Assembly: GCA_023264995.1 (NCBI GenBank)
Contig: JAHFUR010000041.1
Coordinates: 1 to 39,598 of the forward strand
DNA: 39,598 nt
Reading direction: 5' to 3'
From: Acidimicrobiia bacterium
GTDB taxonomy: Bacteria; Actinomycetota; Acidimicrobiia; Acidimicrobiales; AC-14
Shown here: piece after piece, positions 12,316-20,084 of the stretch
Position numbering within the stretch: the first letter of the stretch is position 1
How the letters are laid out: each line of letters opens with the position of its first letter
Program-made: the position numbers and the translations under genes
Notes under the pieces: model-generated
Told to the model about the DNA's origin: nothing
What the model saw: the letters and a program-made list of their open reading frames with translations, nothing else
Databases searched by the model: none

Positions 12316-13323
12316 GTGCTCGTCGTCGCTGCCCCCGACAAGTTCCGTGGCACGGCCACTGCCGCGGAGGTGGCCGCCGCCGTGGCCCGAGCCGTAGAGG
12401 CCGCCGGCGGGACCTGCGACGAGGCGCCGATTGCCGACGGTGGCGAGGGCACGCTGGAGGCCCTCGGCGGGGCGGTGCGGACTGCCACCGTGCGCGGCCC
12501 GCTGGGGGACGCGGTGACCGCCGAGTGGCGGGTGCAGGCCGGCGGCACCGCCGTCGTCGAGATGGCCCGGGCCTCTGGGCTGGCGCTGGTCGGGGGAGCG
12601 GCGGGCAACGACCCGCTCCGGGCGTCGACCGCCGGCACGGGCGAGCTGATCGCCGCGGCCATCGACGCCGGCGCCCGGCGGGTGGTCGTCGGCGCCGGCG
12701 GTTCGGCGTCGACCGACGGCGGGTTGGCCGCCCTCACCGCCCTGAACCCGGGCCGGCGGCTGCACGGGGTCGAGCTGCTGGTCGCCTGCGACGTGGAGAC
12801 GCTCTTCGTCGACGCCGCCGAGGTCTTCGCCCCCCAGAAGGGGGCCACGCCGGCGCAGGTCGCCCTGCTGCGCCGGCGGCTGGAGCGCCTGGCCCAGATC
12901 TACGTGCGCGACTACGGCGTGGACATCACCCAGGAGCCCGGGTCGGGCGCGGCGGGGGGCCTGGCCGGGGGGCTGGCCGCGGCCGGGGCCCGCCTGGTGC
13001 CCGGCTTCGACCTGGTGGCCGAGGCCCTGGGCCTGGCCGAGCGCATCGCCGCCGCCGGCCTGGTCGTCACCGGCGAGGGCACGCTCGACGCCGAGTCCTT
13101 CGAGGGGAAGGCGGTGGGCGGCGTCGTCGACCTGGCATCGGCCGCCGGCGTCGACGTGCTGGTGGTCGCCGGCGACGTGCTGGCCGGCGAGCTGCCGGAG
13201 CTGCCGGCGTCGGTCCAGGTCGTGTCCCTGGTCGCCCGCTTCGGCCGGGAGCGGGCCATGGCCGACGCCGGCGGCTGTGCCGGCGAGGTGGTGGAAAGCG
13301 CTCTCCGTGAGCGCTATCGGTGA
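12316..13323 (+). CDS. Glycerate kinase, family I (GlxK/GarK type), short form
   Basis: It phosphorylates D-glycerate, feeding glyoxylate or glycerate carbon into glycolysis. The family pattern is clear: VVAAPDKFRGTATAAEVAAA at the N-terminus, PIADGGEGTLEAL, EMARASGLALV, STAGTGELIAAAIDAGA, GAGGSASTDGG, FAPQKGATPAQV, GSGAAGGLAGGL and VTGEGTLDAESFEGKA. It has 335 residues against the usual 370-385. The shortfall lies after STDGGLAALTAL, where a loop of roughly 40 residues is missing. GTG 12316 follows an AT-rich box overlapping the divergent otsA promoter. Two hairpins follow the stop. Whether it makes 2- or 3-phosphoglycerate cannot be told. Confidence 0.88.
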   Translation: MLVVAAPDKFRGTATAAEVAAAVARAVEAAGGTCDEAPIADGGEGTLEALGGAVRTATVRGPLGDAVTAEWRVQAGGTAVVEMARASGLALVGGAAGNDPLRASTAGTGELIAAAIDAGARRVVVGAGGSASTDGGLAALTALNPGRRLHGVELLVACDVETLFVDAAEVFAPQKGATPAQVALLRRRLERLAQIYVRDYGVDITQEPGSGAAGGLAGGLAAAGARLVPGFDLVAEALGLAERIAAAGLVVTGEGTLDAESFEGKAVGGVVDLASAAGVDVLVVAGDVLAGELPELPASVQVVSLVARFGRERAMADAGGCAGEVVESALRERYR

Positions 13324-13341
13324 CCGGCCCGGGAGGCCGGT
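13323..13341. terminator. Short hairpin at the glycerate kinase stop
   Basis: ACCGGCC (13323-13329) pairs with GGCCGGT (13335-13341) around a 5-base loop. It is the first of two hairpins in tandem. Confidence 0.4.
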
Positions 13342-13358
13342 CCACGGAGCATGCACAG

Positions 13359-13383
13359 GAGCAAACCTCACAGAGGTTTGCTC
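13359..13383. terminator. Perfect 11-bp hairpin before the SAM riboswitch
   Basis: GAGCAAACCTC and GAGGTTTGCTC pair around ACA. The hairpin ends before the TATCAT box of the next gene, so it more likely ends the glycerate kinase transcript than belongs to the riboswitch. Confidence 0.6.
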
Positions 13384-13391
13384 GTGTGACG

Positions 13392-13397
13392 TATCAT
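13392..13397 (+). promoter_or_regulatory. -10 box TATCAT of the riboswitch-thrC transcript
   Basis: TATCAT matches TATAAT at five of six positions. Transcription would begin at about 13403, at the first bases of riboswitch helix P1. No good -35 box is seen. Confidence 0.5.
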
Positions 13398-13401
13398 GGG
13401 G

Positions 13402-13504
13402 CCGTCATCCAGAGCGGTCGAGGGACCGGGCCCGCAGAAACCGCGACAACCAGCCGTCACCGAAGTTCGGGGGCGACCAGGTGCCAATGCCCGGAGCGAT
13501 GAGG
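13402..13504 (+). promoter_or_regulatory. SAM riboswitch (SAM-I/S-box type)
   Basis: The conserved S-box elements appear in order: CCAGAGCGGTCGAGGGACC (5' P2 and K-turn side), GGGCCCGCAGAAACC, GCGACAACC, then GGTGCCAATGCCC and GATGAGG. P1 forms between TCATC (13405-13409) and GATGA (13498-13502). The 3' strand of P1 overlaps the Shine-Dalgarno sequence (AGGAGG, 13502-13507) of the next gene, so SAM binding should block translation. No separate terminator or anti-terminator is visible. Class I is my assignment from the core; a covariance search would settle the subclass. Confidence 0.85.
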
Positions 13505-13515
13505 AGGCAACAACA

Positions 13516-14754
13516 GTGAGCTTCGTCCAGGGCCTGCGGTGTCGGGAGTGCCACCATGCCTTCCCGGCTGAGGCCCTCCATGTCTGTGAGTGGTGTTTCG
13601 GCCCCCTCGAGGTCGTCTACGACTACGAGAAGATCGCCGCGGCCACGTCGCGGGAGACCATCGCCGCCGGGCCGGCGTCGATCTGGCGGTACGCCAACCT
13701 GCTGCCGGCGGTCAACGACGGCGCCGTCGACCTGGGCGCCGGGTTCACCCCCCTCGTGCGGGCCGACCGGCTGGCCGCCGAGCTGGGCCTGGGCGAGCTG
13801 TGGCTGAAGAACGACACCCTCAACCCCACCGGCTCGTTCAAGGACCGGGTGGTGTCGGTGGCCCTGGCCCGGGCCCGGGCCATGGGGTTCAAGGTGGCGG
13901 CCTGTGCCTCCACCGGCAACCTGGCCAACTCGGTGGCCGCCCACGCGGCCCGGGCGGGCATGCGCCACGTCGTGTTCATCCCCGCCGACCTCGAGGCCGG
14001 CAAGGTCGTCACCACCGCGGTGTACGGCCCGAGCCTGATCGCGGTCGACGGCAGCTACGACGACGTCAACCGGCTGTGCGCCGAGCTGGCCTCCGAGCAG
14101 CCGACGTGGGCGTTCGTCAACGTCAACCTGCGCACCTACTACGCCGAGGGCTCCAAGACGCTGGCCTTCGAGACGGCTGAGCAGCTGGGCTGGGAAGCCC
14201 CCGACCACGTCGTCGTGCCGGTGGCGTCGGGCTCCCAGCTCACCAAGATCGCCAAGGGCTTCCGCGAGCTCCACACCGTCGGCCTGCTGGACGACGAGCC
14301 CCACGTGCGGGTCTCCGGCGCCCAGGCCGAAGGCTGTTCGCCGGTGGCCACCGCCTTCACCGAGGGCCACGACTACATCCGCCCGGTGAAGCCCAAGACC
14401 ATCGCCAAGTCGCTGGCCATCGGCAACCCGGCCGACGGCCCCTACGCCCTCGACGAGGTCCGCCGCAGCGGCGGGGGCCTCGAAGCGGTCTCCGACCAGG
14501 AGATCGTCGACGCCATGCTCCTGCTGGCCCGCACCGAGGGCATCTTCGCCGAGACCGCCGGCGGCGTGACCATCGCCACCCTGGCCCGGTTGGCGGCCAA
14601 GGGCGTGGTGCGCCGCGACGAGCGGGTGGTGGCCTACATCACCGGCGCCGGCCTGAAGACCATCGAGGCGGTGGCGCCGGTGTGCCGTCCCACCGCCACC
14701 ATCGCTCCCACCATGGACGCCTTCGCCGCGGCCTTCGAGGGAATTGAGGCTTAG
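13516..14754 (+). CDS. thrC: Threonine synthase-like PLP enzyme; candidate O-phosphohomoserine-dependent homocysteine synthase
   Basis: A fold-type II PLP enzyme of 412 residues. An N-terminal zinc-ribbon-like segment (CRECHHAF, CEWCFGPLEVVYDY) precedes the catalytic domain. The PLP lysine is in NPTGSFKDRV, the cofactor-phosphate loop is ASTGNLANSVAAHAARAG, and VNVNLRTYYAEGSKTLAFE and NPADGPYALDE follow. By family this is threonine synthase acting on O-phosphohomoserine. However, a SAM riboswitch controls it and a sulfur-carrier-like gene follows 6 bases after its stop codon. I therefore infer that it may make homocysteine from O-phosphohomoserine with a protein thiocarboxylate. GTG 13516 has AGGAGG 8 bases upstream; the in-frame ATG 13396 lies upstream of the aptamer and is rejected. 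Confidence 0.88.
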   Translation: MSFVQGLRCRECHHAFPAEALHVCEWCFGPLEVVYDYEKIAAATSRETIAAGPASIWRYANLLPAVNDGAVDLGAGFTPLVRADRLAAELGLGELWLKNDTLNPTGSFKDRVVSVALARARAMGFKVAACASTGNLANSVAAHAARAGMRHVVFIPADLEAGKVVTTAVYGPSLIAVDGSYDDVNRLCAELASEQPTWAFVNVNLRTYYAEGSKTLAFETAEQLGWEAPDHVVVPVASGSQLTKIAKGFRELHTVGLLDDEPHVRVSGAQAEGCSPVATAFTEGHDYIRPVKPKTIAKSLAIGNPADGPYALDEVRRSGGGLEAVSDQEIVDAMLLLARTEGIFAETAGGVTIATLARLAAKGVVRRDERVVAYITGAGLKTIEAVAPVCRPTATIAPTMDAFAAAFEGIEA

Positions 14755-14760
14755 ACACCC

Positions 14761-15033
14761 ATGGCCACCGTCCGTATCCCCACGCAACTGCGCACCCTGT
14801 CCGGGGGCGCGGCCGAGGTGTCCGTCGACGGGTCCACCGTCGGCGAGGTGCTCAAAGCCCTCGATGCCGCCTACCCCGGTTTCCAGGCCCGCCTCTTCGA
14901 CGACGCCGGCGGCCTCCGCCGCTTCGTCAACGTGTTCGTGGCCGACGAAGACGTCCGCTTCTCCGACGGTCTCGGCACCGCCGTCGAGCCGAGCCAGACC
15001 GTCAGCATCATCCCCGCCGTCGCCGGCGGCTAG
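14761..15033 (+). CDS. ThiS/MoaD-like sulfur carrier protein
   Basis: A 90-residue beta-grasp (ubiquitin-like) protein. It opens MATVRIPTQLRTLSGG, contains VGEVLKALDAAYPGFQARLFD and VNVFVADEDVRFSDGL, and ends IIPAVAGG. The terminal Gly-Gly is the residue pair that is adenylated and turned into a thiocarboxylate in ThiS, MoaD and CysO. CysO of mycobacteria, which feeds sulfur to CysM for cysteine synthesis, is the closest functional model. The start lies 6 bases after the thrC-like stop, so both share the SAM riboswitch transcript. No adenylating enzyme or JAMM protease gene is nearby, so a partner encoded elsewhere must serve it. Confidence 0.9.
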   Translation: MATVRIPTQLRTLSGGAAEVSVDGSTVGEVLKALDAAYPGFQARLFDDAGGLRRFVNVFVADEDVRFSDGLGTAVEPSQTVSIIPAVAGG

Positions 15034-15094
15034 CTCCGGCGCCGCCCTCCGGCGCCGGCCCCGGTTGCGCAGGCCCGCCGCGCGTGGTTTGCTG

Positions 15095-15121
15095 TTAGCA
15101 CTCGACAGTAGAGAGTGCTAA
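15095..15121. promoter_or_regulatory. CIRCE operator (HrcA binding site)
   Basis: TTAGCACTC (15095-15103), nine bases, then GAGTGCTAA (15113-15121): a perfect CIRCE. It puts groEL under the heat-inducible repressor HrcA, which is not encoded in the window. Confidence 0.95.
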
Positions 15122-16801
<1,680 letters not shown>

Positions 16802-18884: not shown

Positions 18885-20084
18885 CTACGCCCCGTACTTG
18901 GCCAACCGGCCGGCGACGTTGAGCATGATCGGCATCAGCTCGCGCGCCGGGCGCCGGCCGAGGGCGCCGAGGAGGCAGTCGCGCTCGCCGAAGCGGGTGA
19001 CCTGGTCCCGGCCGGCCCGTTCACCGTGGACCAGGACGGGCACCGGGTGCCAGGAGTGGGCGGCCATCTGGCTGGGGGTGGCGTGGTCGCCAGTGACGGC
19101 CACCACGTCGGGCCCCATGGCCATGAGCTGGGGCACGACATGGTCGAGCGCCTCGATGGCGGCGACCTTGGCGTCGAAGTTCCCGTCCTCGCCGGCAGAG
19201 TCGGCCGGCTTGTGGTGGAAGAAGAACAGGTCGTAGTCGTCCCAGTGCTCCTTGAGGAGCACGAGCTGCTCGTCGATGTTGGCCGGCGGGCCGACCACGT
19301 CCATCCCGACCAGGCGGCCGATGCCCCGGTACATCGGGTAGACGGCGATGGCCGCGGCCCGCAAGCCATAGCGCTCCCCGACGGTCGGGAGCTGGCGGTG
19401 GGAATCGAGGCCCCGGAGCAGGAGGGTGGTGGCCTTGGGCTGGCCGGCGAGCATGGCCCGGACCTGGCGGTCGAGCTCGGCCACCACCTCGGCGGTGTGC
19501 GCCGCGGCCGGGGCCTGGGCCACCGGCACGAGGGGGGCGACGCCGACCTTCTGGGGGTCGGTGTCGCCGACGTTGGGGTCGAGGTCGGGACCACGGAGCA
19601 CGACGAGCACCCGGTGCTGGGCCTCGTGGACGAACAGCACCTCGACCCCGGGGATCGACACCCCGGCGTTGAGCAGCTCCACCACCTCGGCCGCCTCGGC
19701 GTCGGGGAGGCGGCCGGCACGCCGGTCGGTGATGGTCCCCTGGCCGTCGATCGTGGCCAGGTTGCCGCGGGCGGCGACGTCGCCCGGGTTGAGGTGCACC
19801 TCCAGGCCGGCGGCCGACAGCGCCCCCCGGCCCAGGTGGTAGTCGAACGGCTCGTAGCCGAAGAGCGACATGTGCGCCGGCCCCGACCCGGGCGTGATGC
19901 CGGGGCCAACCGGGTCGAGGAGGCCGGTGAGGCTGGCCGCGGCCAGCGCGTCGAGGTTGGGGGTGTCGGCCTCCTCCAGCTCCGTGCCCCGCTCAGCCGT
20001 GGCGAAGCCGGCCAGACCGTCGAGGACGACGAGCAGGATCTTGCTGGTCGCAGGTTGGACGAGGGTGGACAGGTCGAACGTCAT
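18885..20084 (-). CDS. apgM: ApgM, cofactor-independent phosphoglycerate mutase (archaeal type)
   Basis: It interconverts 3- and 2-phosphoglycerate in glycolysis without 2,3-bisphosphoglycerate. The 399-residue protein is in the alkaline phosphatase superfamily. Metal and active-site motifs are KILLVVLDGLAGF, TPNLDALAA, GITPGSGPAHMSLFGY (nucleophile region), RGNLATID, HHKPADSAGEDGNFDAKV, and VVAVTGDHATPSQM. GGAGG lies 4 bases before the ATG, and a minus-strand TACGCT (20095-20100) is a likely -10 box. Unlike its neighbours, it therefore probably has a short leader with a ribosome site. Confidence 0.93.
   Translation of the reverse strand: MTFDLSTLVQPATSKILLVVLDGLAGFATAERGTELEEADTPNLDALAAASLTGLLDPVGPGITPGSGPAHMSLFGYEPFDYHLGRGALSAAGLEVHLNPGDVAARGNLATIDGQGTITDRRAGRLPDAEAAEVVELLNAGVSIPGVEVLFVHEAQHRVLVVLRGPDLDPNVGDTDPQKVGVAPLVPVAQAPAAAHTAEVVAELDRQVRAMLAGQPKATTLLLRGLDSHRQLPTVGERYGLRAAAIAVYPMYRGIGRLVGMDVVGPPANIDEQLVLLKEHWDDYDLFFFHHKPADSAGEDGNFDAKVAAIEALDHVVPQLMAMGPDVVAVTGDHATPSQMAAHSWHPVPVLVHGERAGRDQVTRFGERDCLLGALGRRPARELMPIMLNVAGRLAKYGA

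Follow-up and report, generated by a model that had tools for sequence, protein, structure and literature searches.

A SAM riboswitch-preceded metM/metO-like gene pair in an Acidimicrobiia bacterium: a predicted thiocarboxylate-dependent homocysteine synthase locus and its distribution in relatives

A protein thiocarboxylate reportedly serves as the sulfur donor for homocysteine in Wolinella succinogenes, where the HcyS/MetY/Mec+ system is said to have been described by Krishnamoorthy and Begley in 2011. The locus considered here would use the same type of donor with a different enzyme. Wolinella MetY is a PF01053 protein of fold-type I acting on O-acetylhomoserine, whereas the enzyme here belongs to the PALP family of fold-type II and its substrate is presumably phosphorylated. 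The CysO/CysM/Mec system of actinobacteria, as presented in the accessible part of PMC1779556, likewise combines a PALP enzyme, a carrier ending in GlyGly and a JAMM protease, but it makes cysteine, and the genome studied here encodes that operon separately. The closest described system is MetM, identified as a homocysteine synthase in Streptomyces and with homologues in cyanobacteria (Hasebe et al., 2024, AEM, doi 10.1128/aem.01247-24, via PMC12172450). According to the accessible text of PMC12172450, MetM of S. albulus is accompanied by a metO sulfur-carrier gene and an upstream SAM riboswitch, so that the Streptomyces precedent suspected in the original prediction is real. Compared by description, the S. 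albulus system and the present one share the threonine synthase homologue, the upstream riboswitch, metO and the (here predicted) substrate O-phosphohomoserine; they differ in the host, an acidimicrobiian in this case. Here the aptamer almost touches the start codon, and the enzyme activity is a predicted one. Orthology to S. albulus MetM is proposed from this architecture, with a Nonomuraea homologue (55% identity) as a stand-in for alignment. The same source describes a Microcystis homologue that has 51.6% identity to S. albulus MetM and a metO-like gene beside it, though no riboswitch; this enzyme makes threonine and degrades it, and with sulfide gave only an unidentified peak near methionine (PMC12172450). 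As far as that text goes, its action mainly as a threonine synthase/deaminase is the main caution on a MetM reading.

The window, the whole stretch of 39,598 nucleotides analysed, is contig C79 of a source genome (G000) of 3,815,911 bases that is 97.95% complete. It contains the following features:

13402..13505, + strand, SAM-I (S-box) riboswitch aptamer (RF00162, score 51.5 bits, gathering score 44.4, full model 1-108)
13501..13507, + strand, GAGGAGG ribosome-binding site (from the sequence and the covariance-model structure line)
13516..14754, + strand, metM-like gene, predicted O-phosphohomoserine-dependent homocysteine synthase (from profiles, tree and motifs)
14761..15033, + strand, metO-like gene, ThiS/MoaD-family sulfur carrier ending VAGG (PF02597, 51.6 bits)
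15161..16801, + strand, groEL (from the ORF list)

The predicted order of an S-box aptamer, a thrC-like gene and a VAGG carrier 6 bases after its stop is thereby borne out. The metM-like gene runs from a GTG at 13516 to a stop at 14754 and encodes a pyridoxal-phosphate (PLP) enzyme of 412 aa, a threonine synthase homologue (TIGR00260, 301 bits; PALP domain, 259 bits) with an N-terminal CxxC..CxxC. The longest ORF starts at an ATG at 13396, upstream of the riboswitch, and would be translated through the aptamer; this start was dropped in favour of GTG 13516, because GAGGAGG lies 8 bases upstream of the latter and the conserved N-terminus results. Six bases after the stop, the metO-like gene begins; its product has 90 aa and the C-terminus IIPAVAGG. 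The groEL gene that follows is a recurrent neighbour of metM-metO in relatives, or of the carrier where metM is lacking, and is no part of the pathway. The stretch that separates the riboswitch from the glycerate kinase gene holds a perfect inverted repeat of 11 bases around a 3-base loop (13359-13383; -16.4 kcal/mol as RNA), with no T run after it; it is a candidate terminator of the upstream gene or an operator.

We read this locus as encoding a MetM/MetO homocysteine synthase that is subject to feedback by SAM, with a probability of about 0.9. The system is known from Streptomyces, and the source bacterium very probably makes homocysteine by it. Thiocarboxylate-dependent homocysteine synthesis, as originally predicted, is well supported by a second ThrC in the genome, by the lack of any MetX, MetA or MetY-level match, by the enzyme tree and by sequence motifs. 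From these observations, the gene order and the riboswitch, we infer the catalytic and regulatory steps that follow. A rhodanese-ThiF fusion protein encoded elsewhere would probably be the enzyme that adenylates MetO at its C-terminal GlyGly and thiocarboxylates it; the genome has such a protein, of MoeB type (559.9 bits against a cut-off of 449). MetM, a threonine synthase-family enzyme that depends on pyridoxal phosphate, would eliminate phosphate from O-phosphohomoserine and transfer sulfur from MetO-COSH to the gamma carbon. The product would be homocysteine, which may first form as a conjugate with MetO and then be released by a Mec-type JAMM protease. The separate ThrC would convert the same phosphohomoserine to threonine. 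At high SAM, closure of aptamer stem P1 would hide part of the ribosome-binding site and stop translation of metM and metO. To the Streptomyces system the present analysis adds the extension to Acidimicrobiia, the anatomy of the riboswitch with its overlap of P1 and ribosome-binding site, a replacement pattern, carrier tails, lone carriers, and a link to a pathway gap named in 2018.

The RF00162 match lies above the gathering score with full-length structure, which places the element in the SAM-I family. It is the sole match reported for the source genome, from a run with stricter Infernal filters in which 52 of the 217 first-look candidates were scored. In stem P1, GATGAGGA (13498-13505) forms the 3' strand; the first 5 bases of the GAGGAGG site fall within this strand, and the GTG follows the aptamer after a gap of 10 bases. 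The aptamer structure is that of the Rfam model and is not returned by a plain minimum-energy fold. No intrinsic-terminator-like site was found in 13200-15200. This, together with an aptamer-start gap of merely 10 bases, is why control of translation is preferred; transcription attenuation was set aside on this anatomy only. On the model, high SAM would repress metM-metO at the translational level through P1.

For comparison, 60 genomes in 51 families were sampled: the source genome and 59 others of its order. Every one of the 36 genomes with MetM has RF00162 ahead of the gene (38 copies, one slightly under the gathering score), and in 36 of the 38 copies the aptamer ends at most 13 bases before the start, the exceptions being G056 (37) and G018 (129). 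Two genomes have two enzyme copies, each with its own riboswitch: G037 (C62, C107) and G034 (C102, C131), the second G034 copy matching in two pieces. Among 30 MetM loci of relatives, 29 reach the gathering score and one (L022) scores 43.7. Elsewhere in the order, RF00162 occurs somewhere in four of 24 non-MetM genomes (G013, G021, G030, G035); in G013 it precedes metY-metX, and in G030 no MetM was found behind either of two SAM riboswitches. A wider set of 68 loci, which overlaps the 30-locus set, was obtained from 74 matched loci minus six at no more than 30% identity (L113-L118). When 21 wider loci were scanned, nine had RF00162 and 12 did not, namely seven loci of Chloroflexi/Dehalococcoidia, two of Nitrospirae and three archaeal loci. 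In four Chloroflexota loci, 174 to 242 bases lie between the aptamer and the matched enzyme, and in Nonomuraea gerenzanensis 43 bases separate it from the first matched enzyme residue; these longer distances make other control mechanisms possible there. Relatives also have further SAM riboswitches (L144, L145, L146, L147, L148, L149, L150), followed by genes labelled, from reading of the sequence, as methyltransferase-like, hom-like, GNAT-like and metF-like, plus unlabelled ones.

MetM and MetX exclude each other in this sample. A MetM-type enzyme at 66% identity or more is present in 36 of the 60 genomes (in G019 as two fragments), MetX at 390-462 bits in 21, and both together in none; the curated MetX cut-off of 500 is reached by none of the 60, nor by any of 14 control genomes. 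Three genomes have neither enzyme: G009 (70% complete), G030 (88%) and G032 (96%, with MetY). MetY above its cut-off is found in 19 genomes, 18 of them without MetM; the other, G024, has MetM plus a metA-metY pair. The exclusivity represents a few replacement events. In a tree of groEL from 49 loci with groEL nearby, 10 of them without riboswitch-linked MetM (a partial, a window duplicate and one masked-base locus were left out), the MetM/MetX label needs three changes, at least two of them forced. Counting the pattern as 57 independent points was rejected, since the groEL tree implies about three switches, and a hypergeometric value of 2.5e-13, which ignores kinship, was not used as evidence. 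Two genomes with MetX and MetY, G014 and G052, also encode a MetM-like enzyme that has diverged (44-47%); a carrier accompanies it, a riboswitch does not. These enzymes fall on the MetM side of the enzyme tree and have altered motifs. Riboswitch, enzyme (55%), carrier and groEL stand together in N. gerenzanensis (Streptosporangiales). The record concerned, NZ_LT559118.1, is labelled plasmid I; at 11.85 megabases it looks like a chromosome by size.

The distribution bears on a gap in the literature. Price et al. (2018; PMC5764234), in the accessible part of the paper, reported that at least one more homocysteine pathway was to be found, and named Acidimicrobium ferrooxidans DSM 10331, Aquifex aeolicus and Pyrolobus fumarii as lacking any known homocysteine pathway. 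Genome G040, taken as A. ferrooxidans, has the arrangement riboswitch-MetM-MetO-groEL and no MetX-level (24 bits at best), MetA or MetY-level match. MetM/MetO probably fills the gap named for A. ferrooxidans in that part of the paper (PMC5764234), and, given this locus and the lack of such matches, the Acidimicrobium part of the gap is testable with one gene pair. This link was not found in the literature searched, which did not extend to Hasebe et al. (2024) itself. The results also suggest that, for many Acidimicrobiia, 'threonine synthase' names for the metM-like gene and predictions of a need for methionine are wrong.

Recurrence of riboswitch, enzyme and carrier in this order among relatives goes beyond chance. 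The carrier follows MetM in 30 of 30 loci, with its start within about 160 bases of the enzyme end. MetO was read in 61 of the 68 wider loci; in five of the seven misses, the sequence behind the enzyme is no longer than 421 bases or the enzyme frame itself is cut by the contig end, which leaves L105 (Bathyarchaeota) and L112 (Nitrospirae) as real misses within roughly 870 bases looked at. The constancy of a carrier close behind the enzyme argues against free sulfide as the main donor of MetM, with MetO dispensable or a mere aid to efficiency. MetY-type enzymes are able to use sulfide, and use by MetM is conceivable by comparison. In addition, sulfide was added in the Microcystis work in order to mimic MetM activity, according to the accessible text (PMC12172450). 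Given the gene pairing, we consider sulfide as the main donor unlikely, and the reading of MetO as sulfur donor is retained.

The best solved relative of the MetO-like carrier is chain 3dwg_C, 'cfp10A', which we take to be CysO of Mycobacterium tuberculosis. The carrier as CysO of the cysteine pathway was nevertheless rejected, because a complete mec-cysO-cysM operon stands elsewhere in the source genome, on contig C75 (L040); a CysM-type partner and Mec are located there and not in the operon of the carrier. The C-terminus of MetO is exactly GG in 23 of 30 loci, and the remaining seven have 1 to 20 extra residues (L015, L031, L012, L013, L018, L019, L029); in the wider set, 16 of the 61 carriers read are tailed. 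Tails were rejected as a peculiarity of MetO, since CysO proteins of the same genomes are tailed too, in six of 18 readable cases among 20 fetched loci (L125, L127, L129, L131, L133, L137). Residues beyond the terminal GlyGly imply a trimming protease, most likely the JAMM protease, which would have to act before a tailed carrier is activated. The presence of JAMM does not discriminate (35 of 36 MetM genomes, 19 of 21 MetX genomes). In G040, there is a JAMM match and no CysO-like match besides MetO, which has no tail there.

A MetO-like carrier (56-69% identity) persists in 10 of the 21 MetX genomes, eight without MetM and two (G014, G052) with the divergent copy. Its distance from groEL is at most about 2 kb in nine of the 10 and also in G032, with an intervening ORF in two cases; in G028, the tenth, the carrier sits at the edge of its contig. 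Carriers without MetM, in genomes with MetX and/or MetY, make up loci L159-L167 (G011, G028, G032, G020, G021, G043, G059, G042, G015), of which all but the G028 locus, eight in number, have groEL at that distance. Identity alone is no marker of MetO, as one CysO reaches 56% (G031); the groEL neighbour is what marks MetO. Our guess is that lone carriers near groEL feed MetY. A broader and rather doubtful proposal would make MetO a swappable sulfur module, in which the lone groEL-side carrier may feed MetY and one Mec matures and recycles both CysO and tailed MetO. G032 (L154) has a MetY-type enzyme and a lone carrier with no MetX-level, MetA or MetM match.

The metM-like product shares its fold and the PLP lysine motif NPTGSFKDR with ThrC proteins of solved structure (2zsj, 6cgq, 2d1f, 1uim; 217 bits to 2zsj). 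It differs from ThrC in having ASTGNLANS, the loop noted in the original prediction, for ASTGNTSAS, and N-x-N-x-R-x-YY-x-EGSK for NS-x-NP-x-R-x-EGQK, and in an additional N-terminal CxxC..CxxC region; the ThrC motifs GNTSA and NP-x-R-x-EGQK are absent from it. The motif N-x-N-x-R-x-[YF]-Y-x-EGSK is found in all 30 MetM loci and, in the wider set, in 65 of 68; two of the three proteins without it are incomplete matches. The strict ThrC motif NS-x-NP-x-R-x-EGQK is found in 12 of 17 ThrC paralogues with the NTS loop and in none of the 30 MetM loci; the source genome's own ThrC has the GNTSA loop and a variant, NPYRIQGQQ. The motif shift probably re-shapes the phosphate-ligand site of MetM-type enzymes, because the ThrC motif arginine aligns with residue 160 of the Thermus enzyme (counted by hand), which is presumably a phosphate ligand. 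CxxC..CxxC near the N-terminus occurs in all NLA-loop proteins examined (30, 67 and 8 in three sets that share some loci) and in none of the 17 NTS-loop ThrC proteins; speculatively, this region could be a docking site for the carrier.

The best curated family name for the product is threonine synthase, and the Microcystis homologue has threonine synthase and deaminase activity, as far as the accessible text of PMC12172450 goes. Both would fit a second threonine synthase (or synthase/deaminase) under SAM control that balances phosphohomoserine use against methionine supply, with the carrier serving another enzyme. However, a canonical ThrC is already present in the genome. A second, conventional thrC, on which the original prediction depended, lies at C40:49778-50755, on a contig other than that of the window and directly downstream of a homoserine dehydrogenase gene (hom); its product has the ASTGNTSAS loop and is 39% identical to the metM-like product, which is thus not the sole ThrC-type protein. 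In a tree of 50 proteins, a chosen subset, 32 MetM-type and 12 ThrC proteins are split by a branch with support 100/99, so that the metM-like product stands apart from ThrC. A second threonine synthase would also leave unexplained why the enzyme, at 66% identity or more, never occurs with MetX in the order. A carrier accompanies the enzyme at every one of the 30 loci. We regard a second threonine synthase as very unlikely, and prefer homocysteine synthesis by MetM.

Profile searches of the source genome gave no match to MetX or MetA and no MetY-level match (best 159 bits against a cut-off of 495), so the canonical acylhomoserine route was not detected; at 97.95% completeness, a gene of this route could have been missed. 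These searches came out as the original prediction expected. Not all PF01053 enzymes are missing, since there is one PF01053 protein over its cut-off (428 bits), of the cystathionine-gamma-synthase/lyase type. Its nearest models are those of cystathionine gamma-synthase and lyase, under their cut-offs (a 299-residue fragment was scanned). That homocysteine comes from cystathionine through this enzyme, as a plant-like cystathionine gamma-synthase on O-phosphohomoserine with MetM as an auxiliary, agrees with these closest models but is highly improbable, as the route needs a gamma-synthase and a beta-lyase where one PF01053 match is over cut-off, the protein could just as well act in reverse transsulfuration as a cystathionine gamma-lyase, and such an enzyme is missing from 11 of 36 MetM genomes at the limit used. 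That limit was 1e-20 with the MetY model TIGR01326, which the source genome's PF01053 protein passes at 1e-46; 10 of the 11 genomes without a match are at least 90% complete.

ThrC has hom on one side and, on the other, a protein that resembles phosphoglycerate mutase. Its score is 419.7 bits with TIGR02535, 'proposed homoserine kinase' (cut-off 446.3), which makes it a candidate maker of O-phosphohomoserine; because a phosphoglycerate mutase model gives a higher score, 433.2 bits, and one above that model's cut-off, this is a lead only. Two phosphoglycerate-mutase-like proteins were noted, both encoded on the - strand: the one beside hom-thrC (L139:2983-4230) and another in the window, at 18885-20084.
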